Below, piece after piece: positions 35,989 to 64,000 of a stretch of 64,000 nucleotides of DNA. The number at the start of each line of letters is the position of its first letter. Position 1 is the stretch's first letter. A program made the translations under genes and the position numbers. The notes beneath the pieces are model-generated. The model had not been told where the DNA came from, searched no databases, and was given only the letters and a program-made list of their open reading frames with translations. The stretch is from a virus, in IMG/VR virus record IMGVR_UViG_3300044638_008494, positions 43,023 through 107,022 of that record. One strand, 5' to 3'.

Positions 35989-36909
35989 CTATATTATTTC
36001 TTTTTCAATGCAATATTGCAAATCTATTTTTTTAACTTCTTCTCCAAGTCCTAAAATTTTTAAAATTAAATCAGTCATATGCTTTCTGCCATCACAATAT
36101 ACAACTTGAAAGCATTCATATTTTTTATATAAATCTCTAACTCTATGAAATATGTATTCTGGGCTTGTTGCAAACCACCGTTTTTTATTATAGGCTAAAG
36201 AGCTATATGATGCTTCGACCATTATAATAATATATCCGTTATTATTTTGCGCTCTTAATAATTCTTTTTCAAATCTTTCAAGATTGGCACCAAAAGTTCC
36301 AAAAAAATCACTGAAACTTTTACGCTCAATAACGATTCTGGAAGCTGGAGATAAGGCATAGTCGCCATAATCAAGCGCAACATTTACTTTTCTCAAATCT
36401 TTTGCAAATTTTAAAGGTCTCTTTTCGCGCGTGTCAATTACTATTTGCTTTGCAGGTTTTGAATTCGTAGCCCGTACATCTAAATTATAATAATCATATT
36501 TAGATTCTTTATTGCTTTTGATACATATTTCGTTATAGTTAGCCGAGCATAATTTTTCTATAAAGCGAATTGATGGCAAGCAGCTTATTGTTTGTACGAA
36601 AAATTCTGGCGGTGCATTTTTTAAATTTTTAATATCACAATATTTTTTAATTTTTCCAGATATATAATCTAAAGCCTTCTCTTGACCAATTTTGGCAAGC
36701 CAAGATTTCATAGAAATTTTATCTTCAAAATCTGAAAGAAAATATTGCTCTACTGATTTGAAATGTATTTTTTTGTTATTCGACAAATCATGTCTTGGGT
36801 AAAATTGTTCGAAATATCTTTTTTGAGATATCTTATGTTGCTTTAAATGCTTTGAAAGCTCTATCACGCCGCTAAATTTTTTAGCACAAAACTCGCATTT
36901 GATTTCCAT
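35989..36909 (-). CDS. ERCC4-type nuclease with N-terminal C2H2 zinc finger, 306 aa
   Basis: Residues 1-25 form a C2H2 finger (CEFCAKKFSGVIELSKHLKQH). Residues about 150-290 carry the XPF/ERCC4 nuclease signatures: VIDTREKRPL, a GDYAL segment and IVIERKSFSDFFGTF, matching the GD(x)n-ERK active site. XPF-family enzymes cut branched or flapped DNA. The location directly upstream of TerL and downstream of a coiled-coil protein suggests a role in resolving branched replicated DNA before or during packaging. The gene is tightly packed with its neighbours. Confidence 0.85.
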   Translation of the reverse strand: MEIKCEFCAKKFSGVIELSKHLKQHKISQKRYFEQFYPRHDLSNNKKIHFKSVEQYFLSDFEDKISMKSWLAKIGQEKALDYISGKIKKYCDIKNLKNAPPEFFVQTISCLPSIRFIEKLCSANYNEICIKSNKESKYDYYNLDVRATNSKPAKQIVIDTREKRPLKFAKDLRKVNVALDYGDYALSPASRIVIERKSFSDFFGTFGANLERFEKELLRAQNNNGYIIIMVEASYSSLAYNKKRWFATSPEYIFHRVRDLYKKYECFQVVYCDGRKHMTDLILKILGLGEEVKKIDLQYCIEKEII

Positions 36910-38024: not shown

Positions 38025-38708
38025 TTATATTATCATTTCTTTGACAATTTTCTTTGCTTTTATTACAATCTGTGCCCTTATCTTTTTAACAAATTTATAA
38101 CCAGTTTTTGTAGATCCGTTTTTATAACCAAGCATTGTTATAACTTCTGTTTCTGGATACCCATCTACAAACAAATATGTGTAAACCTTTTGCTGAACTG
38201 GCGTTAAAGATTTTAACATTTCGCTATGAACTTTTGGAACAAACGATTCAAAATCAAAACCGCTAGAATCTGATGCGCGAGCATCAAACTCATTGCCTTC
38301 ACCAAAAATTCTTTCATCATTTACGCTAACTGGCAACTTGACATCATAAGCATGTTTCTTTGTTTTCTCCCATTTTGCATAATCAGCACATTTAGAAGAT
38401 TGAACGTTATATAATTTACAATTATTTCCGCCAGCATTATGTGGGCAATTTAAACACGGTCTGGCATAGTTGGAATAATTGTTTCTAACAAGGTTAATAA
38501 TTTGATTTGTAATAACAGTATTTAACCACGGAAGGAGGGCCATCTCTGGATTCCACTTTTCCCATTTTTTAAAAATATGTAGTCTTAATTTTTGTTCTAC
38601 ATCATTAAAGTCCATCCACGCAATGGATGTTAGCTTCCATTGGGAGCGTCTTTTTGCTATTTCCTGATTTATTACATCCAAGCAGGATTCGAAAGATGGG
38701 CGCTCCAT
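38025..38708 (-). CDS. Sigma-70-family-like transcription factor with Cys-rich insert, 227 aa
   Basis: Residues about 30-75 resemble sigma region 2 (DVEQKLRLHIFKKWEKWNPE, then LLPWLNTVITNQIINLVRN). Residues about 165-220 resemble region 4 with a helix-turn-helix (SLTPVQQKVYTYLFVDGYPE, then VITMLGYKNGSTKTGYKFVKKIR). Between them lie four Cys in a CLNCPHNAGGNNCKLYNVQSSKC-like arrangement, which may bind zinc and is not typical of sigma factors. The length fits ECF-type sigma factors. In the structural operon it could direct late transcription. I rate the sigma-like fold as probable, and its target promoters as unknown. Confidence 0.65.
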   Translation of the reverse strand: MERPSFESCLDVINQEIAKRRSQWKLTSIAWMDFNDVEQKLRLHIFKKWEKWNPEMALLPWLNTVITNQIINLVRNNYSNYARPCLNCPHNAGGNNCKLYNVQSSKCADYAKWEKTKKHAYDVKLPVSVNDERIFGEGNEFDARASDSSGFDFESFVPKVHSEMLKSLTPVQQKVYTYLFVDGYPETEVITMLGYKNGSTKTGYKFVKKIRAQIVIKAKKIVKEMII

Positions 38709-57607: not shown

Positions 57608-57694
57608 ATGACAAAGAACGCTATGACATACATCGCTGAAGCACTCGCCGTGGTGCTCATCCTCCTGCTCGGCGTTGCGATTCTTTCGCTCTAA
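57608..57694 (+). CDS. Small single-pass membrane peptide, 28 aa
   Basis: A 28-residue reading frame starting 4 nt after the previous stop. It encodes a short N-terminus followed by one hydrophobic helix (ALAVVLILLLGVAILSL). Its TAA stop is also the first part of the repeat arm that follows, suggesting that the repeat is tied to operon ends. Small phage membrane peptides often affect the host envelope or lysis timing; that is speculation here. Confidence 0.5.
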   Translation: MTKNAMTYIAEALAVVLILLLGVAILSL

Positions 57695-57795
57695 GTTGTT
57701 GTAAATCAACGACTTACAGAGCCGGGCCGGGCCGCCGGGCGTAAGTCCTTGGTATTCAACGACTTACACAAATACACGTTCAAGAAGTGTGCCAA
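57692..57795 (+). repeat. Composite intergenic repeat, copy 1
   Basis: Left palindromic arm 57692-57717 overlaps the preceding stop codon. The GC core spans 57721-57740 and the right arm spans 57741-57767. A TTCAAGAAGTGTGCCAA element follows at 57779-57795. Both arms can fold on themselves with 8-10 paired bases. Confidence 0.9.
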
Positions 57796-57835
57796 CTCTC
57801 CGAAAAAAAGTTTTACATAATCGAAAAAAAATCCA

Positions 57836-57863
57836 TTGACTTTTCCGAGTCTTGTGCTATTCT
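57836..57863 (+). promoter_or_regulatory. Sigma70-like promoter with extended -10, leaderless type
   Basis: TTGACT, 16-bp spacer and TGC-TATTCT, one of the best matches in the set. The -10 ends 6 nt before ATG 57870. An A-tract lies directly upstream. Confidence 0.88.
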
Positions 57864-57869
57864 ATATAC

Positions 57870-58244
57870 ATGAACAAAAACGAAACCACATTCAACGTCA
57901 ACGGAACCCTCTGCACCCTCGTCATCTCTGAGGACAACGATGGCGACTGCATCAAACTCTGGCACGATCTCGTCAGCGTCGAGACTGGCAAGGTTCTCGC
58001 AACCCTCGACTGGTCGCCCTACTCCATCCCTTCCGATGAGGAAGTGCAACAGATCATCGACTTGGGGGAAGTCGTTCTCGGAAAATTCACCTTGCCCGAA
58101 GGTTTGCGCTGGTCTAACTCTCACCCCATGTCCCGCATGAACTTCTGCTCGGACGTTCTCGCCATGTTCCTCGCTGGCGAGGAGCATCCCCAAGGCGGGA
58201 AGCTGGAGCTTGTGTTCCGCGTGCGTCATTCCGTTGCCGCATAA
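57870..58244 (+). CDS. Small protein of unknown function, 124 aa
   Basis: The start at 57870 sits 6 nt from the -10 box; an in-frame ATG six codons upstream would fall inside the promoter. The protein has balanced composition and alternating strand/helix character, with segments VNGTLCTLVISEDNDGDC and TGKVLATLDWSPYSIPSDEEV. Two Cys occur. It is a single-gene unit preceded by repeat copy 1 and followed by another promoter. No homologous family was recognised. Confidence 0.75.
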   Translation: MNKNETTFNVNGTLCTLVISEDNDGDCIKLWHDLVSVETGKVLATLDWSPYSIPSDEEVQQIIDLGEVVLGKFTLPEGLRWSNSHPMSRMNFCSDVLAMFLAGEEHPQGGKLELVFRVRHSVAA

Positions 58245-58252
58245 AAAATCTC

Positions 58253-58281
58253 TTGCGTTTCCGCTCAACATCCCATACTCT
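58253..58281 (+). promoter_or_regulatory. Sigma70-like promoter, leaderless type
   Basis: TTGCGT, 17-bp spacer and TACTCT. The -10 ends 6 nt before ATG 58288. It begins 9 nt beyond the previous stop codon, in an A-tract context. Confidence 0.78.
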
Positions 58282-58287
58282 AACAAC

Positions 58288-58503
58288 ATGAACAGCATCC
58301 ACGACGACTACAGCACGCAACCGCAATCCGACGAATACGCGACCGAGCACGAGGAAGTGCGCGGCGCGTTCGCCGCCGAGCCTGCCGTTGAGCAGGAGCC
58401 CGAGCCCCAACCCTATGATGGGTTCGAGGGCCAATGGGCAGGCGATGGATCGGGCTTCGACGACCTCGCGGACTTGGGTGAGCAGGAGGGCTGGGACACG
58501 TAA
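58288..58503 (+). CDS. Highly acidic small protein, 71 aa
   Basis: The protein has 20 Asp/Glu but only one Arg and no Lys in 71 residues, so its net charge is close to -19. Aromatic and Gly residues are scattered near the C-terminus (GFEGQWAGDGSGFDDL). Strongly acidic small phage proteins sometimes mimic DNA and block host nucleases or restriction enzymes; here that is an inference from charge alone, since no fold is recognisable. A strong terminator follows about 70 nt later. ATG 58288 was chosen from its position relative to the promoter. Confidence 0.7.
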   Translation: MNSIHDDYSTQPQSDEYATEHEEVRGAFAAEPAVEQEPEPQPYDGFEGQWAGDGSGFDDLADLGEQEGWDT

Positions 58504-58624
58504 GAGTGTCATAAACTTTCTCCGAACGTTTCGATGCGCGTCTCCATGGCGCGGGAATAAACGATGAGGAGAGTGAAACGCTCGTTCTAAACGGGCGTTT
58601 CTTTTTGCCTAAATTGCTTCTTGT
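58504..58624. other. Intergenic region before the terminator and repeat copy 2
   Basis: Together with the following repeat and promoter this forms the 322-bp gene-free stretch 58504-58825. It contains GTGTCATAAAC and a CGCG-flanked imperfect inverted repeat near 58536-58554, besides the terminator listed separately. No gene is evident. Confidence 0.5.
58575..58606 (+). terminator. Intrinsic terminator
   Basis: A 12-bp stem (58575-58586 with 58590-58601, one G-T pair) closes a 3-nt loop and is followed by five T. It ends the acidic-protein operon. Confidence 0.92.
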
Positions 58625-58702
58625 GTAAACCCTTGATATTCAACCGCTTACGCAACCGGGCGGGGCGCCCGGCTCTAAGTCCTTGATACTCAACCACTTA
58701 CG
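58625..58702 (+). repeat. Composite intergenic repeat, copy 2 (divergent core)
   Basis: Arms at 58625-58652 and about 58675-58702 flank a different GC core (58656-58673) that forms a perfect 7-bp hairpin, CCGGGCG-GGG-CGCCCGG. It lacks the TTCAAGAAGTGTGCCAA element. This is the only copy whose core departs from the other six. Confidence 0.85.
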
Positions 58703-58791
58703 TAATGCCTTGCGAACCCGCATGGATACTGGCTTCGCGGGCGTCAAGCTTTTTTATGAAAAAAAATTCTTCATCAAATCAAAAAAATCCG

Positions 58792-58819
58792 TTGTTTTCT
58801 GCGAGGCCCGTGCTATTCT
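58792..58819 (+). promoter_or_regulatory. Sigma70-like promoter with extended -10, leaderless type
   Basis: TTGTTT, 16-bp spacer and TGC-TATTCT. The -10 ends 6 nt before ATG 58826, and an A-tract lies upstream. Confidence 0.83.
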
Positions 58820-58825
58820 GTATAC

Positions 58826-59017
58826 ATGAGAAACAACAGAAGCTGGCGCGACGAAGAACGCGAAGCAACCCTCGACTACCCGCTGGCCGTGGATCGTGAA
58901 GATCCCGCCTACCGGCAGAACCCAGACGCTTACGAGCGTGAAATCGAGCGCCTTAATCGGCACGAAGGCTGGGAGCGTAGCCGTTGCGGTTACTACTATA
59001 GCCGCAACTACCGCTGA
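58826..59017 (+). CDS. Small Arg/Glu-rich protein of unknown function, 63 aa
   Basis: A highly charged peptide with many Arg and Glu (SWRDEEREATLDYPLAVDRE, NPDAYEREIERLNRHEGW) and a Tyr-rich end (GYYYSRNYR). It may be helical and nucleic-acid binding, but nothing identifies a family. It stands alone between its own promoter and the next promoter 10 nt beyond the stop. The start is fixed by the promoter position. Confidence 0.7.
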   Translation: MRNNRSWRDEEREATLDYPLAVDREDPAYRQNPDAYEREIERLNRHEGWERSRCGYYYSRNYR

Positions 59018-59026
59018 AAAAGCCTC

Positions 59027-59055
59027 TTGACTTTCAGCCCATTTTCACCGATACT
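59027..59055 (+). promoter_or_regulatory. Sigma70-like promoter, leaderless type
   Basis: TTGACT, 17-bp spacer and GATACT. The -10 ends 6 nt before ATG 59062. It lies in the short gap after the preceding stop codon. Confidence 0.75.
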
Positions 59056-59061
59056 TTCGAT

Positions 59062-59229
59062 ATGACAGAAAACACCACACCTACTGGCTGGCCCGAAGTC
59101 TGGAACTTCGACGAACCCAAAGACGACAACCTCACCCCAGAGGAAGCGTTTGACATCCTTTTCGGCTACGCCGAGGAGCGTCATCGCAACGACCCGTGCG
59201 CTCGTCCCGCCCCCAAACCCAAACACTAA
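59062..59229 (+). CDS. Small protein of unknown function, 55 aa
   Basis: The gene opens a three-gene operon. The protein is Pro/Asp/Glu-rich in its first half (MTENTTPTGWPEVWNFDEP), then helical (LTPEEAFDILFGYAEERHR), with a Pro-rich basic end. Only its placement and promoter support it; no motif was recognised. Confidence 0.65.
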   Translation: MTENTTPTGWPEVWNFDEPKDDNLTPEEAFDILFGYAEERHRNDPCARPAPKPKH

Positions 59230-59233
59230 CACT

Positions 59234-59443
59234 ATGACAAACACAGACGGCATCATCAAGTCGCTTGAAACCCTTATCAAGCATGAAAAAGCAATTCAAC
59301 GCCAAGGGGATCAAATCGAAGAAATAAAAAATGTCATTCAAGGAACCTTGCAAACAATTCAAGGCTTGATTGTGGTCAACGCTGTTCTCACAAGAGAGAT
59401 TGAAAATTTGCGAAATAACAAGCCTTTCTTTGGACTGAACTAA
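59234..59443 (+). CDS. Small coiled-coil protein, 69 aa
   Basis: ATG 59234 lies 4 nt after the preceding stop. The frame is also open upstream to 59150, but that extension lies inside the preceding gene. A helical, heptad-like pattern runs through most of the sequence (SLETLIKHEKAIQRQGDQIEEIKNVIQ), ending in a short basic segment. Self-assembly or partner binding by coiled coil is plausible. It shares the operon with the genes on both sides. Confidence 0.65.
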   Translation: MTNTDGIIKSLETLIKHEKAIQRQGDQIEEIKNVIQGTLQTIQGLIVVNAVLTREIENLRNNKPFFGLN

Positions 59444-59444
59444 C

Positions 59445-59600
59445 ATGAGCAGAATCATTATGACAATCGACACGCGACCGCTTGCGCGTGTCATAGAGCG
59501 CAGCGTCCGCAAGACATCTTGCCGCCCATCCTTCGCTATGCGCGTCAAGACAAAATTCTCACGCAAGGCAAAGTTTTTTCGCGGTTGGAAAGACGAGTAA
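59445..59600 (+). CDS. Small basic protein of unknown function, 51 aa
   Basis: Starts 1 nt after the previous stop and is strongly basic (many Arg/Lys: RPLARVIERSVRKTSCRP, KTKFSRKAKFFRGWK). Its TAA stop is part of the left arm of repeat copy 3. The charge suggests nucleic-acid contact. The reading frame is short, so the call rests on compact operon spacing. Confidence 0.55.
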   Translation: MSRIIMTIDTRPLARVIERSVRKTSCRPSFAMRVKTKFSRKAKFFRGWKDE

Positions 59601-59672
59601 AGCGTTGGTAATCAAGCACTTGCGTTACCGGGCCGGGCCGCCGGGCGTAAGTCGTTGATAGTGAAAGACTTA
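59597..59672 (+). repeat. Composite intergenic repeat, copy 3
   Basis: The left arm 59597-59624 contains the stop codon of the preceding gene. The core is at 59628-59646 and the right arm at 59647-59672. No TTCAAGAAGTGTGCCAA element follows. Confidence 0.88.
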
Positions 59673-59700
59673 TATAAAATGTTTTTTTAAAAAAAATTCA

Positions 59701-59728
59701 TTGACTTTATTCAAAAATCACTCATAAT
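59701..59728 (+). promoter_or_regulatory. Sigma70-like promoter, leaderless type
   Basis: TTGACT, 16-bp spacer and CATAAT. The -10 ends 6 nt before ATG 59735. Confidence 0.82.
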
Positions 59729-59734
59729 AAAGTT

Positions 59735-60040
59735 ATGAAAAAAATAATTAAAAGAGTTATAGTTACCGCATTAGCAACTGTCAGCATTGCAATGAACTGC
59801 ATTTTTGGCTTTATAATATATGCCTCATTGAAGTCAGAAGCGAACATGAAAACTTTTTGCAATTCCGAGATCGCACAAAAAGCATCTGTCACTACTCTGA
59901 AAGAAAATGGCCAATTAATGCTGCTGCTTAACAGAGATGGTAAAGAAATAAAAATAAATATTCTTGAAGCTGCTAAAAATAAACTGGCATTTGATATTCT
60001 GTCAGGTTTTTCTGCCCACGAAAAACATATTAAAAATTAG
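59735..60040 (+). CDS. Small membrane-anchored protein, 101 aa
   Basis: A basic N-terminus (KKIIKRVIV) and one hydrophobic helix (about residues 8-32) suggest an inner-membrane anchor with the rest outside or in the periplasm. The C-terminal part is charged and helical. Its codons are more AT-rich than those of the other genes in this module, closer to the structural genes. No family was recognised. Superinfection exclusion is one possible role for such a protein. Confidence 0.65.
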   Translation: MKKIIKRVIVTALATVSIAMNCIFGFIIYASLKSEANMKTFCNSEIAQKASVTTLKENGQLMLLLNRDGKEIKINILEAAKNKLAFDILSGFSAHEKHIKN

Positions 60041-60046
60041 TTTTAT

Positions 60047-60151
60047 ATAAACCCTTGAAAATCAACAACTTACGTAGCCGGGCCGGGCCGCCGGGCGTAA
60101 GTGCTTGATAATGAACGACTTATGCAAAACACCATTCAAGAAGCGTGCCAA
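60047..60151 (+). repeat. Composite intergenic repeat, copy 4
   Basis: Left arm from 60047 (near-identical to that of copy 5), core 60077-60096, right arm 60097-60123. A TTCAAGAAGCGTGCCAA element at 60135-60151 differs from the commonest form at one base. Confidence 0.9.
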
Positions 60152-60212
60152 GTCTGGGCGAAATGATAAAAAATCTTGCAAAAAATTTTTCAAGGTTGTG
60201 AAAAAAAATCGC

Positions 60213-60241
60213 TTGCACTTTTTCCGAGGTCGTGCTACTTT
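60213..60241 (+). promoter_or_regulatory. Sigma70-like promoter with extended -10, leaderless type
   Basis: TTGCAC, 17-bp spacer and TGC-TACTTT. The -10 ends 6 nt before ATG 60248. An A-tract lies upstream. Confidence 0.82.
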
Positions 60242-60247
60242 TTAACC

Positions 60248-60775
60248 ATGAAAGAGAAAAAAACAATCGAAGAAAGAAAGGCGTATTGTCTTTTGATGTT
60301 TTGTTTTTTTTCATTCATAGCTTTTTTGTTAGCACGCGCAGGAATGTTGTTTGCTGCTGCGAATATCATTGTGGGAACAATCATTCTTTTGCTCTCTTTT
60401 TTCTTCCTGTATGTTGGATCAGCCTTTTTGGCGATTCAAGTAGTTTCTTGGATCGGTAACAATTTTGGAAAAATTTTTACTTTTGGCGGCCACTTCAATA
60501 AACCACAACCCGCTTACAGCCTGCCAGATGGCCTTGCCGCTACCGGACAAAACGCTTGCGCTATCCTTGCCTACAATGAACTTGCAAAAAATCATCCCGA
60601 AGAAATCTTGCCCCATCTTCGCGTGATGAGGATATGGATTGAAAAAATGAATGACGTTGACGCTGCGGTTATGGCTTACAATCTCGCCTTAAAAAAAATT
60701 CGCGGACAAAAAAATCGCAATGAGTTTGTAAAAATGGCAAAAAATAACTTCAGCAAATTCATCAGCTTTGAATGA
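60248..60775 (+). CDS. Two-helix membrane protein, 175 aa
   Basis: ATG 60248 was chosen from the promoter; the frame is open 24 codons further upstream. Two hydrophobic segments lie at about residues 14-35 and 38-62 (CFFSFIAFLLARAGMLFAAA and GTIILLLSFFFLYVGSAFLA). A soluble C-terminal domain of about 110 residues is helical and TPR-like in texture (ACAILAYNELAKNHPEEILP, DAAVMAYNLALKKI). It is a single-gene unit bounded by promoter and terminator. An envelope-associated early protein is plausible. Confidence 0.75.
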   Translation: MKEKKTIEERKAYCLLMFCFFSFIAFLLARAGMLFAAANIIVGTIILLLSFFFLYVGSAFLAIQVVSWIGNNFGKIFTFGGHFNKPQPAYSLPDGLAATGQNACAILAYNELAKNHPEEILPHLRVMRIWIEKMNDVDAAVMAYNLALKKIRGQKNRNEFVKMAKNNFSKFISFE

Positions 60776-60793
60776 GTGTCATAGTAATGTCAT

Positions 60794-60824
60794 AAAGCGT
60801 CCGCGCAAGCGGGCGTTTTACTTT
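60794..60824 (+). terminator. Intrinsic terminator with GNRA loop
   Basis: An 11-bp stem (60794-60804 with 60809-60819, two G-T pairs) closes a GCAA tetraloop. The T-rich 3' strand supplies the run (TTTT-A-C-TTT). Confidence 0.82.
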
Positions 60825-60842
60825 GCGCGAATCCAATTCTCC

Positions 60843-60947
60843 ATAAACCCTTGAAAATCAACAACTTACGTAGCCGGGCCGGGCCGCCGGGCGTAACCCC
60901 TTGATAATCAAGCACTTATGCATTATAGCATTCAAGAAGTGTGCCAA
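60843..60947 (+). repeat. Composite intergenic repeat, copy 5
   Basis: Left arm 60843-60870 matches that of copy 4. The core spans 60873-60892 and the right arm 60893-60920. A TTCAAGAAGTGTGCCAA element is at 60931-60947. Confidence 0.9.
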
Positions 60948-60986
60948 TCGTAGCGAATGGGCAAAAATAAAAAATAAAAAAATCCC

Positions 60987-61014
60987 TTGCATTTCTGCGG
61001 CTCTGTGATATTCT
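60987..61014 (+). promoter_or_regulatory. Sigma70-like promoter with extended -10, leaderless type
   Basis: TTGCAT, 16-bp spacer and TGA-TATTCT. The -10 ends 6 nt before ATG 61021, with an A-tract upstream. Confidence 0.85.
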
Positions 61015-61020
61015 TTAAAC

Positions 61021-61173
61021 ATGGAAAAGAAAATGACTCAATACGCGGACAAGCTCAATGCCTTCCGCGCTGGCGAAATCACCGAGGACGAATGGAAAGC
61101 GTTCTGCTTTGAAGCTCTCTCCGAGATCCTCGAAGACACGAAAGATGTCCTCATCAGGCTGAAAAACGCTTGA
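61021..61173 (+). CDS. Small helical protein of unknown function, 50 aa
   Basis: A short acidic, helical protein (MTQYADKLNAFRAGEITEDE, then CFEALSEILEDTKDVLIRL) with no recognised family. Its TGA stop overlaps the -35 box of the following promoter, which starts at 61170. The start is fixed by the leaderless promoter. The small size and charge pattern fit an early regulatory or inhibitory peptide, but this is speculative. Confidence 0.68.
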   Translation: MEKKMTQYADKLNAFRAGEITEDEWKAFCFEALSEILEDTKDVLIRLKNA

Positions 61174-61198
61174 CTCAATCGCAACAATTAAACATACT
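61170..61198 (+). promoter_or_regulatory. Sigma70-like promoter overlapping the previous stop codon
   Basis: TTGACT, 17-bp spacer and CATACT. The -10 ends 6 nt before ATG 61205. The -35 box uses the TGA stop of the preceding gene. Confidence 0.78.
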
Positions 61199-61204
61199 AT
61201 CACC

Positions 61205-61384
61205 ATGAATAAACAAACACCACAAAAAGCCCAACTCTGGGCAGTCGGAAACAAAGTCTATCGCGTCATCCGTAACGAAGGCGACAAGACTCACGTTCAC
61301 CATCACGGAGAAATGGCCCTGTTCTACACGCGCCATTTGAAAATGGCGACACCTTCCCAAGTTGCGGAATACTTGGGAAAATAG
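61205..61384 (+). CDS. Small protein of unknown function, 59 aa
   Basis: A basic, His-containing protein (THVHHHGEMALFYTRHLKM) with a strand-rich start and a helical end (ATPSQVAEYLGK). The three consecutive His could bind metal, though this is not a known motif here. It is a single-gene unit followed 2 nt later by the next promoter. No family was recognised. Confidence 0.68.
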   Translation: MNKQTPQKAQLWAVGNKVYRVIRNEGDKTHVHHHGEMALFYTRHLKMATPSQVAEYLGK

Positions 61385-61385
61385 T

Positions 61386-61414
61386 TTGACAATCACCACA
61401 AAACCTAACAGAAT
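61386..61414 (+). promoter_or_regulatory. Sigma70-like promoter, leaderless type
   Basis: TTGACA (perfect -35), 17-bp spacer and CAGAAT, a weaker -10. The -10 ends 6 nt before ATG 61421. Confidence 0.7.
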
Positions 61415-61420
61415 AACAAC

Positions 61421-61609
61421 ATGACAAAAAAACAATTCACCGCCATTGCTCACATCTTGGCAAAACGCTTGGCCGAAAAAGTCAAAGCTCCCATCGGAGA
61501 ATACGAAGTTGTCGAAGTCCTCGCCTTGGACTTGGCGAAATACTTCTCGACAGAAAACCCTCGTTTCGACGAAGATCGCTTTTTGGAAGCTGTCTACACT
61601 CACAGATAA
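61421..61609 (+). CDS. Small helical protein of unknown function, 62 aa
   Basis: The first gene of a five-gene operon. The protein is helical with mixed charge (KKQFTAIAHILAKRLAEKVK, DLAKYFSTENPRFDEDRFLE). A compact fold of three helices is plausible. No family was recognised. Downstream genes lack promoters of their own. Confidence 0.7.
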   Translation: MTKKQFTAIAHILAKRLAEKVKAPIGEYEVVEVLALDLAKYFSTENPRFDEDRFLEAVYTHR

Positions 61610-61614
61610 AAACC

Positions 61615-61704
61615 ATGTCAATCTGGGTTCCACTCTTTTACCTTTGCATCATGCCAGCCGCTTGCGGATTCTTAATCCTCTGGGCTGATTCCAGAAAAAA
61701 ATAA
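61615..61704 (+). CDS. Membrane micro-peptide, 29 aa
   Basis: Starts 5 nt after the preceding stop. One hydrophobic helix fills most of the peptide (WVPLFYLCIMPAACGFLILW), ending in a basic tail. It resembles small phage membrane peptides such as lysis or envelope regulators. Confidence is limited by its small size and by the lack of a Shine-Dalgarno site. Confidence 0.45.
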   Translation: MSIWVPLFYLCIMPAACGFLILWADSRKK

Positions 61705-61708
61705 TCAC

Positions 61709-61888
61709 ATGAAAAAATACATCACATTCGACAAGATTGCTTACGCAATGTCCCTCTCAACCTTCATCTTCATCGCGGTAACGCTTTGCGCTGCTTGTGT
61801 TAACTTGCAAAACAGAACCAGCAAGAACCAAAAGCAAATGCAGGAAGAAGTCCGCGCAATGTTTGCCCACATCGAGGCACCTCTATGA
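61709..61888 (+). CDS. Small single-pass membrane protein, 59 aa
   Basis: Starts 4 nt after the micro-peptide. One hydrophobic segment (about residues 12-31, MSLSTFIFIAVTLCAACVNL) is followed by a charged helix (SKNQKQMQEEVRAMFAHIE). Its TGA overlaps the next ATG, indicating coupled translation. The topology suggests a cytoplasmic coiled-coil tail or a periplasmic one. Rz- or spanin-like pairing with neighbours is possible but no motif supports it. Confidence 0.6.
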   Translation: MKKYITFDKIAYAMSLSTFIFIAVTLCAACVNLQNRTSKNQKQMQEEVRAMFAHIEAPL

Positions 61889-62085
61889 TTACCCCCAATA
61901 TCCAAAAAGCTCTTGAGTCAAACGGAGTCCGTTTCTTTGCAAAAGACTTTCTCATGGAAGGCATGAGGAAAGATTGCGTTGACGCTGTGCATGATGCAAA
62001 ACTCGTTTATGAGTTGCTGCGCGAACGCATGGAAGCTATTCTTTCACTCACGCCAACTTATCCAGAAACAGAAACAAATGAGTAA
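61885..62085 (+). CDS. Small helical protein of unknown function, 66 aa
   Basis: The ATG overlaps the preceding stop (ATGA), so translation is probably coupled. The protein is helical and acidic overall (FAKDFLMEGMRKDCVDAVHD, KLVYELLRERMEAIL). It overlaps the next gene by 8 nt. No family was recognised. Confidence 0.62.
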   Translation: MITPNIQKALESNGVRFFAKDFLMEGMRKDCVDAVHDAKLVYELLRERMEAILSLTPTYPETETNE

Positions 62086-62266
62086 AGACCAAGTCAAAGC
62101 CGTGTGCGATTACTCGCATGATGTCATAATGAAAATCAAAGCCGTGTTGGGGTTCAAAAAGAAAAGTCCTTCGCTTCTTTGTCATAGTCTCGCGCACCTC
62201 AACACCGCGACATGGCTTGAGCGCGCGGTCTGCAACGGCACAATCATGGACTACAAGCCGCGATAA
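62078..62266 (+). CDS. Small basic protein of unknown function, 62 aa
   Basis: ATG 62078 was chosen because it overlaps the end of the previous gene by 8 nt and begins a well-formed sequence (MSKDQVKAVCDYSHDVIMK); a frame extension to 61979 would lie wholly inside that gene. The protein is basic with three Cys and two His, perhaps able to bind metal. It is the last gene of the operon and repeat copy 6 follows within 2 nt of its stop. Confidence 0.62.
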   Translation: MSKDQVKAVCDYSHDVIMKIKAVLGFKKKSPSLLCHSLAHLNTATWLERAVCNGTIMDYKPR

Positions 62267-62267
62267 C

Positions 62268-62345
62268 GTAAGTCGTTAGCAATCAAGCACTTATGCTACC
62301 GGGCCGGGCCGCCGGGCGTAAGTCGTTCAAAATCAATAACTTATG
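62268..62345 (+). repeat. Composite intergenic repeat, copy 6
   Basis: Left arm 62268-62295, core 62299-62317, right arm 62318-62345. It lies between an operon end and the promoter of the RNA candidate. There is no TTCAAGAAGTGTGCCAA element. Confidence 0.88.
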
Positions 62346-62428
62346 AATAAGTGCAGATACTATCATGCCCATGAGAGAATTTCAAGTAAAAAAGCAAAAA
62401 ATAATTTTTAAAAAAATAAAAAAATTCA

Positions 62429-62456
62429 TTGCGTTTTCCATGATGTGTGGTATACT
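62429..62456 (+). promoter_or_regulatory. Sigma70-like promoter with extended -10, drives RNA candidate
   Basis: TTGCGT, 16-bp spacer and TGG-TATACT. The predicted start is 62463, the A of ATG ATT TAA. No substantial gene begins there. Confidence 0.84.
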
Positions 62457-62462
62457 GCTTAC

Positions 62463-62663
62463 ATGATTTAAAAACAAAAGACATAATCCAGCCCAAAGAG
62501 AACCTTGGGTGTGCAAGCTGGATGTCTCACTTTCACCCTACTTTTTCTTTGAAATTTTTGATAGGACAAGAGGTTCTCCATCGAGAAGGGTTGATCGCCG
62601 GAAAAAAGGTGGAGACGTAAGCGTCGGATCGTAATGACAAGGCCTACTCCTATCAATTTTTTT
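62463..62663 (+). ncRNA. Structured small RNA candidate, about 200 nt
   Basis: Seen directly: the promoter just upstream; a 5' hairpin with ATCCAGC (62486-62492) pairing with GCTGGAT (62517-62523) and CCAA/TTGG inside it; a closing stem TTGATAGGA (62558-62566) with TCCTATCAA (62648-62656), followed by seven T. Inside that stem are AGG/CCT, TTCTC/GAGAA and GACG/CGTC. GAGAACCT in the first loop (62498-62505) is the exact complement of AGGTTCTC (62571-62578), so a pseudoknot or a switch is possible. The only AUG-led frame is two codons long. Known RNA families were not recognised. It could be a free sRNA or a leader controlling the zinc-ribbon gene, but that gene has its own promoter. Confidence 0.7.
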
Positions 62664-62664
62664 C

Positions 62665-62693
62665 TTTACTTTTTTTTCTGATTCTGTTACTTT
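62665..62693 (+). promoter_or_regulatory. Sigma70-like promoter, leaderless type
   Basis: TTTACT, 17-bp spacer and TGT-TACTTT. The -10 ends 6 nt before ATG 62700. It begins right after the RNA terminator T run. Confidence 0.7.
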
Positions 62694-62699
62694 AGCTTT

Positions 62700-62894
62700 A
62701 TGACAAAAGAAACCACTAAATGCCCCAAGTGCGGGGGGAAAGCCACGCAAACCTACGAGCCACCCTATCAGGAATACGCTGGAGCCAGCGTGCAGGGCGG
62801 CTACTACTTCGTGGAGTGCGCTTGCGGCCACGAAGGCTTCGAGAAGGCCAGTCTCGACGACTACAACTGGCAAGAGAATACAAGGGGCTGGTAA
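62700..62894 (+). CDS. Small zinc-ribbon protein, 64 aa
   Basis: Two metal-binding half-sites are visible: CPKCGG near residue 8 and ECACGHEGFE near residue 40, giving a C-x2-C and C-x-C-x-H-like pattern. The layout recalls small Lar-type restriction-alleviation proteins, in which a CxFCGG motif is followed by a second Cys pair, but the second site differs, so this is only a possible relation. Its stop codon forms part of repeat copy 7. A short promoter directly upstream drives it. Confidence 0.68.
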   Translation: MTKETTKCPKCGGKATQTYEPPYQEYAGASVQGGYYFVECACGHEGFEKASLDDYNWQENTRGW

Positions 62895-62995
62895 CCCCTT
62901 CATTCTCAAGGACTTGCGTTACCGGGCCGGGCCGCCGGGCGTAAGTCGTTGAATATCAGCAACTTATAGATTATCCCGTTCAAAAAGTGTGCCAA
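62891..62995 (+). repeat. Composite intergenic repeat, copy 7
   Basis: The left arm 62891-62918 includes the stop codon of the preceding gene. Core 62922-62940, right arm 62941-62968. A TTCAAAAAGTGTGCCAA element is at 62979-62995. Confidence 0.9.
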
Positions 62996-63537: not shown

Positions 63538-64000
63538 ATGACACTACTAAGCACCAACAACACCAAAATCAAAAAAGGCGAAAAGCTCGGCTGGCGCACT
63601 TACGGCCTTTCACTCTCACCCGCTGGCAAAAGTGGCAAACAATTCTGTCCGCATCGCTCGGCTGGCTGTGAGTTTGCTTGTCTCGACACTTCGGGCATGG
63701 GCATCTTTTCAAACGTGCAAGACGCACGCCTTGCAAAGTCGCGTTTCTTCATCGACAACCGCAACGAGTTTCTTTCTCAGTTGCATAAAGAATTGCACAA
63801 TGCAGAAAAGTGGAGCGCAAAAAATAATATGCCTGTCGCCGTTCGTCCGAACGTGCTTTCTGATCTGCCTTGGCATAAGCTGATCGACATGGCGCGCTTT
63901 CCGTCAATTCAGTTTTACGATTACACGCCGAACCTTCAACGCATGATGCAGTTTCTAAACGGCGAGTTGCCTAAAAATTATCATCTGACCTTCTCGCGCA
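63538..64000 (+). CDS. GP88-like phage protein, N-terminal 154 aa (runs off window)
   Basis: The open frame starts with ATG at 63538 and is still open at the window end. Residues about 20-55 contain RTYGLSLSPAGKSGKQFCPH followed by SAGCEFACLDTSGMG, matching the phage gene-product-88 family as I remember it (a conserved SPAGKSG and Cys-rich block). Later blocks AVRPNVLSDLPWHKLI and FPSIQFYDYTPNLQRM are also family-like. The Cys residues suggest a metal or iron-sulfur site. The family's function is not known to me, and the C-terminus is outside the window. Confidence 0.72.
   Translation, partial: MTLLSTNNTKIKKGEKLGWRTYGLSLSPAGKSGKQFCPHRSAGCEFACLDTSGMGIFSNVQDARLAKSRFFIDNRNEFLSQLHKELHNAEKWSAKNNMPVAVRPNVLSDLPWHKLIDMARFPSIQFYDYTPNLQRMMQFLNGELPKNYHLTFSR

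Follow-up and report, generated by a model that had tools for sequence, protein, structure and literature searches.

In integrons every gene unit ends in an attC site, in which a spacer separates two simple sites, and REP/BIME elements are composite palindromic repeats of intergenic DNA. In the PeSLs of T4-type phages an early promoter is joined to a stem-loop terminator as a repeated unit (Arbiol et al. 2010, 10.1093/gbe/evq006; Comeau et al. 2014, 10.1093/gbe/evu129; as cited in PMC4503421). ESAS consist of two inverted 17-bp repeats, separated by a spacer of varying length (mostly 4-13 bp), and are located beside a 13-bp sequence at the start codon (PMC3203893). Stoperators of cluster A mycobacteriophages are 13-bp asymmetric sites that are spread genome-wide and bound by the immunity repressor (PMC6550527, PMC9283540).

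The window, a stretch of 64,000 nucleotides, is part of a phage record of 107,022 bp (G000, a 107-kb fragment), the right end of which harbours seven elements with the order arm, core, arm (Table 1). Each element is 78 bp long (28, 22 and 28 bp), with exactly 50 nt between the starts of the two arms in 7/7 copies, and all are located on the + strand. The original prediction of seven equally oriented copies, six with an identical core and one with a hairpinned core, was borne out by the sequence. Six of its start coordinates were right and the first was 1 nt off (57691, not 57692). As to its size range of 76-105 bp, the ‘105 bp’ form comprises the 78-bp element and, separate from it, a conserved motif farther downstream, TTCAAGAAGTGTGCCAA, which is clear in four copies. 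The core sequence CCGGGCCGGGCCGCCGGGC, a shared 19-mer, is identical in six of the seven cores and always on the + strand, where shuffles expect 0, and the core of element 2 is a perfect hairpin (CCGGGCG-GGG-CGCCCGG). The arms, described beforehand as imperfect palindromes, are indeed imperfect 27-nt dyads, and in three copies (elements 1, 3 and 7) the TAA of arm 1 is the stop codon of the preceding ORF, as had been noticed. All seven elements are found at boundaries of small-gene units, one per boundary, 3' of the end of a unit and 5' of a promoter. They occupy only the last 7 kb of the record, where GC content is 44-45 % compared to ~34 % in the rest, and a scan of that rest revealed zero further copies. 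Copies at random sites, which would have pointed to inert repeats, were not encountered; the copies are confined to arrays at unit boundaries. We favour, at about an even chance, the view that the element is a composite putative protein-binding DNA site at the borders of transcription units, which would act on the downstream promoter or as a boundary and would also serve as a recombination joint.

Table 1 Elements and neighbouring features in the G000 array (window coordinates)
Feature	Position	Strand	Details
Element 1	57691-57768	+	arm 1 57691-57718 (stop codon of preceding ORF), core 57719-57740, arm 2 57741-57768
Element 2 (variant, perfect-hairpin core)	58625-58702	+	arm 1 58625-58652, core 58653-58674, arm 2 58675-58702
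Element 3	59597-59674	+	arm 1 59597-59624 (stop codon of preceding ORF), core 59625-59646, arm 2 59647-59674
Element 4	60047-60124	+	arm 1 60047-60074, core 60075-60096, arm 2 60097-60124
Element 5	60843-60920	+	arm 1 60843-60870, core 60871-60892, arm 2 60893-60920; ortholog in G769/G778 has a different core
Element 6	62268-62345	+	arm 1 62268-62295, core 62296-62317, arm 2 62318-62345; left joint of the unit missing in G769
Element 7	62891-62968	+	arm 1 62891-62918 (stop codon of preceding ORF), core 62919-62940, arm 2 62941-62968; right joint of the unit missing in G769
Downstream motif TTCAAGAAGTGTGCCAA	57779-57795 (after element 1), 60135-60151, 60931-60947, 62979-62995	+	clear in four copies
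Likely leaderless sigma-70-type promoter after element 1	57836-57872	+	TTGACT-16-TATTCT, ATG 57870
Similar promoters before ATGs	58826, 59735, 60248, 61021, 62463, 63079	+	predicted from sequence
Intrinsic-terminator-like hairpin and T run, upstream of element 2	58575-58601	+	predicted from sequence

The search of other records, suggested with the original prediction, revealed that the element is common to many other phages: approximately 600 arm-core-arm elements were found across more than 100 IMG/VR stretches. The exact arm consensus matches 23 viral stretches and a relaxed form at least 120, with a chance expectation, estimated from information content, far below one. The spacing of the arms is mostly fixed per phage, 50 bp being commonest, followed by 58 and 42 bp and others. 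Seven large array-bearing records that were compared have ~30 gene families in common, among which DNA polymerase III alpha, primase, DnaB, a RecA-like protein, a sigma-like factor, an ERCC4-type nuclease, portal and terminase, and in all seven the array lies at most ~25 kb from the terminase operon. Judged by gene content, these records form one lineage of large uncultured phages. An eighth record (G783) carries the same genes and no element, and ends beside the terminase operon. Close relatives of the array phages were not found among the annotated phages searched, which leaves them without close cultured relatives. Array genes can be up to 100 % identical between phages with terminases that are only ~55 % identical, which indicates exchange. 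Beyond the elements the exact core was not found in the G000 record, either as guide or as target; its two matches in other viral contigs lie in GC-rich contigs (61-65 %) that lack arms, and were taken as chance. No description of the arm sequence was found in the literature, and among the matches listed the text looks like primers in unrelated papers. An Rfam search of the window gave no match at the gathering score. The data suggest that a widespread phage lineage has retained a family of putative regulatory elements, and the element offers a sequence handle for finding and comparing such phages. Five array-bearing phages encode a RuvB-like Holliday-junction helicase (in G778 at L313:15378-16346), which may, along with the ERCC4-type nuclease (window 35989-36909), be relevant to any recombination among the repeats.

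The promoters downstream of the G000 elements have the form TTGnnn-N16/17-TAnnnT (CATAAT once) and lie 6-7 nt before the ATG, so that the transcripts are probably leaderless. A likely leaderless sigma-70 promoter was located at most 170 bp away from 64 % of the elements compared to 19 % of random sites, and the elements lie at a median of 60 bp upstream of the -35 box. These promoters and leaderless starts are likely on the basis of sequence. Like SAS and ESAS of cluster K mycobacteriophages, the elements recur in front of some of the phage genes, contain imperfect inverted repeats and have a consensus that is specific to the phage (PMC3203893). However, they stand upstream of promoters, are built of 27-nt dyads with a core of fixed length, and do not supply the 13-bp sequence at the translation start. 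In the unit after element 6 (62346-62700), which is missing from G769, the promoter is followed by an ATG and almost directly by a stop; ~200 nt lack a convincing ORF and contain complementary stretches (GAGAACCUU/AAGAGGUUCUC). This region is possibly a small RNA; its folding is no stronger than that of shuffled sequence, and a search of Rfam gave no match. Two proteins (window 38025-38708 and L008:14138-14743) show weak matches to sigma-70 regions 2/4, the first just over the Pfam cut-off, and are possible phage sigma factors for promoter classes outside the array. A partial GP88-family protein (PF17338) is encoded at the end of the record (63538-64000).

The arms were analyzed for signs of pairing. 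In the half-site, GTAASTCSTTGA, positions 3, 4 and 10 are nearly invariant, and the four half-sites are all alike. Pairing of dyad positions was generally not above the within-phage shuffle, the exception being one pair out of 13 (2-26) that was slightly above, and pairing between the arms tended to fall below that shuffle. G-T and A-C mismatches in the dyads were about equally frequent. This pattern is consistent with a protein that recognises double-stranded DNA, and the arm is probably a site bound in this way; the same data argue against RNA hairpins as well as attC-type folding. Hairpins that terminate transcription or protect 3' ends at operon ends would agree with where the elements lie, at unit ends, and with the folding of the complete element, which is stronger than that of mononucleotide-shuffled sequence (z ~ -4.5). 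However, both strands fold equally well, as for any dyad, the cores alone are barely structured (z ~ -0.5), a T tract 3' of the element is lacking, and a separate terminator precedes element 2, indicating that element 2 itself is not the terminator there. An RNA-level role is thus considered unlikely. Similarly, the promoter is present as in T4-type PeSLs, but the missing T tract, the separate terminator at element 2 and the lack of covariation do not agree with the terminator part of a PeSL (PMC4503421). The repeated part consists here of two dyads around a phage-specific GC core instead of a stem-loop terminator.

The arms are conserved lineage-wide, whereas the cores, GC-rich in most phages, are specific to each phage. 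Core identity averaged 0.71 for copies of one locus and 0.56 for copies of different loci, against 0.43 after shuffling. Homogeneity differs among phages, cores being nearly perfectly homogeneous in G000 and far less so in others, and this variation counts against the favoured reading. G778 (170.5 kb) and G769 share 98 % terminase identity with G000, and their array genes mostly match the G000 orthologs at 80-94 % DNA identity. In six element comparisons between G000 and G769, one of which uses a G769 element for a second time, opposite another G000 element, as G769 lacks the intervening unit, identity was 85 % for the upstream flank, 85 % for arm 1, 77 % for arm 2 and 76 % for the downstream flank, but 58 % for the core, which is near the level of unrelated GC-rich sequence. 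All orthologous cores compared between G000 and its closest relative differ. The G000 core is close to those of the slightly more distant G775/G777 (terminase 96 %), and the G778 core to that of G007, also a fragment, although the terminase of G007 is only ~55 % identical. At the locus of element 2 a hairpin core occurs in G769/G778 as well, with different sequences in G000 and G778. A second case of switching was found between L026/L082 and L130/L137 (flanks 88-97 %, cores 57-65 %). Many other phage pairs retain their cores, and switching is therefore episodic. In 32 of 285 scored copies (L017, L027, L067, L080) the core is flipped relative to the coding direction, as if inverted between the palindromic arms. 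Shared arms with phage-specific cores that change at many copies together look like a two-part protein-recognition code. That cores differ at every compared ortholog while arms and flanks are retained demands a mechanism, for example gene conversion or co-evolution with a core-reading factor, and the differences between close relatives make phage identity signals testable.

Sites that are phage-specific and differ as a set between close relatives are reminiscent of the stoperator divergence in cluster A mycobacteriophages (PMC6550527), and both systems have many oriented sites per genome. It can be speculated that the array consists of operators or stoperators of an immunity repressor, the core type setting the immunity specificity. 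However, a search for CI-type HTH_3 repressors in 20 array records, many of them fragments, gave none above cut-off, and a search for tyrosine recombinases/integrases (PF00589) in 31 array records including G000, most of them fragments, gave none. Without integrase and HTH_3 repressor the phages look lytic; since many records are fragmentary, the absence of these genes is provisional. Unlike the genome-wide 13-bp stoperators, moreover, the sites are long dyads of 27 nt, and in both G000 and G778 they occur only in a single array region. A repressor array is accordingly quite doubtful. The original reading as boundary sites with an unfamiliar arm-core-arm layout stands, while its analogy with repressor sites is weakened.

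Where G000 has two elements with a unit between them (window 62268-62968), G769 has a single element. On the left, the two sequences align right up to the element's first base; on the right, the match starts again inside the region downstream of the second element. Judging by this alignment, one unit has been gained or lost exactly at the element. Overall, 11 of 64 indel junctions fall inside elements, which make up 4.5 % of the sequence; the other 53 lie outside and count against the favoured reading. The elements are, on these counts, preferred but non-exclusive joints. Inert or selfish repeats of the REP/BIME or MITE type, spreading in intergenic DNA, might also be palindromic, composite and homogenised within a phage. 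Such repeats would, however, hardly explain the fixed anatomy and spacing, one copy per unit boundary, the association with promoters, the phage-specific core, the lineage-wide retention near one genome position, the invariant half-site bases or a relative in which the flank is matched as far as the element's first base, and the selfish-repeat explanation carries little probability. Integron-like or other site-specific recombination, with the arms as recombinase sites and the units as cassettes moved by the recombinase, would agree with the attC-like arrangement of two simple sites around a spacer at unit ends, with units gained or lost at elements, with the inverted cores and with movement of array genes between distant phages. 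Nevertheless it is rather improbable: the 31 records searched yielded no PF00589 recombinase, the arms lack the covariation for mutual pairing expected of a folded attC-type strand, and most indel junctions lie elsewhere. Being repeated, elements could shuffle units by recombination between copies. In common with T4-type PeSLs, they are cassettes that recur between the small genes of a plastic region and come with a promoter, and they are associated with apparent modular shuffling (PMC4503421), units being gained or lost at elements and genes being common to distant phages, yet with the majority of junctions elsewhere. Unlike in PeSLs, the cores switch as a set and the lineage-wide dyads also occur in bacterial chromosomes. 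The element is best read as working like a T4 PeSL in shuffling units while being built differently.

From the anatomy, the distribution, the promoter association, the lack of pairing covariation, the exact gain or loss of one unit and the core differences at all compared orthologous sites, we infer the participation of proteins in the following way. The two 27-nt dyads would be bound by a dimeric protein with a specificity common to the phage lineage and with sites in Fibrobacterota chromosomes as well. Reading of the GC-rich core would fall to another factor, or to another domain, with a specificity per phage type. The complex, with a likely leaderless promoter of the sigma-70 type ~60 bp downstream, might separate or control the adjoining small-gene units, and recombination between element copies would add, remove and exchange units. 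A more tentative elaboration holds that each boundary carries two keys: the arms may be read by a conserved or host protein and the core may be an identity tag read by a fast-changing phage factor, so that a switch of the tag would change all copies in a genome at once. Helical phase is lost between spacing classes that differ by 8 bp, which sits uneasily with one rigid protein-DNA complex.

Single coreless dyads are also present in bacterial chromosomes. They were found in 60 of 151 Fibrobacterota genomes (40 %), where control matches were almost nil, and in 5 of 289 genomes from the phylum of a Lentisphaerae MAG; among 297 genomes from the phylum of a Flavobacteriaceae MAG (Bacteroidota-type) only the phage-like contig of that MAG itself had the dyad. 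Nearly all chromosomal dyads examined are intergenic, with several sites per genome. The Fibrobacterota sites, being coreless and without a common neighbouring function, speak against the preferred reading of a protein-binding boundary site. The 28-bp length and the modular units, for which no phage recombinase would be needed, are reminiscent of Xer/dif-like sites used with the host XerCD, as in pdif modules. However, in the sole genome tested (G123, Fibrobacterota) the site lies at 790 kb, ~165 kb from the GC skew change near 955 kb that would mark the replication terminus. The skew is unchanged at the dyad, so the site is probably not dif. Several sites per genome and the lack of a match to known dif halves make this explanation highly improbable.

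The dyad common to phages and Fibrobacterota is a lead to the hosts or to an exploited host protein, with Fibrobacterota as the candidate host of these phages. Beside the Verrucomicrobiota and Fibrobacterota sites no clear common gene function was found; the neighbours include several genes that are repeat-rich or concern cell-surface polysaccharides. In Fibrobacter MAGs (L035:5617, L038:3138, L039:4206) the best dyad lies between a gene for a conserved protein of 136-145 amino acids, which adjoins a peptidase-like gene, and a long repeat-rich gene. This location is conserved in several Fibrobacterota genomes.
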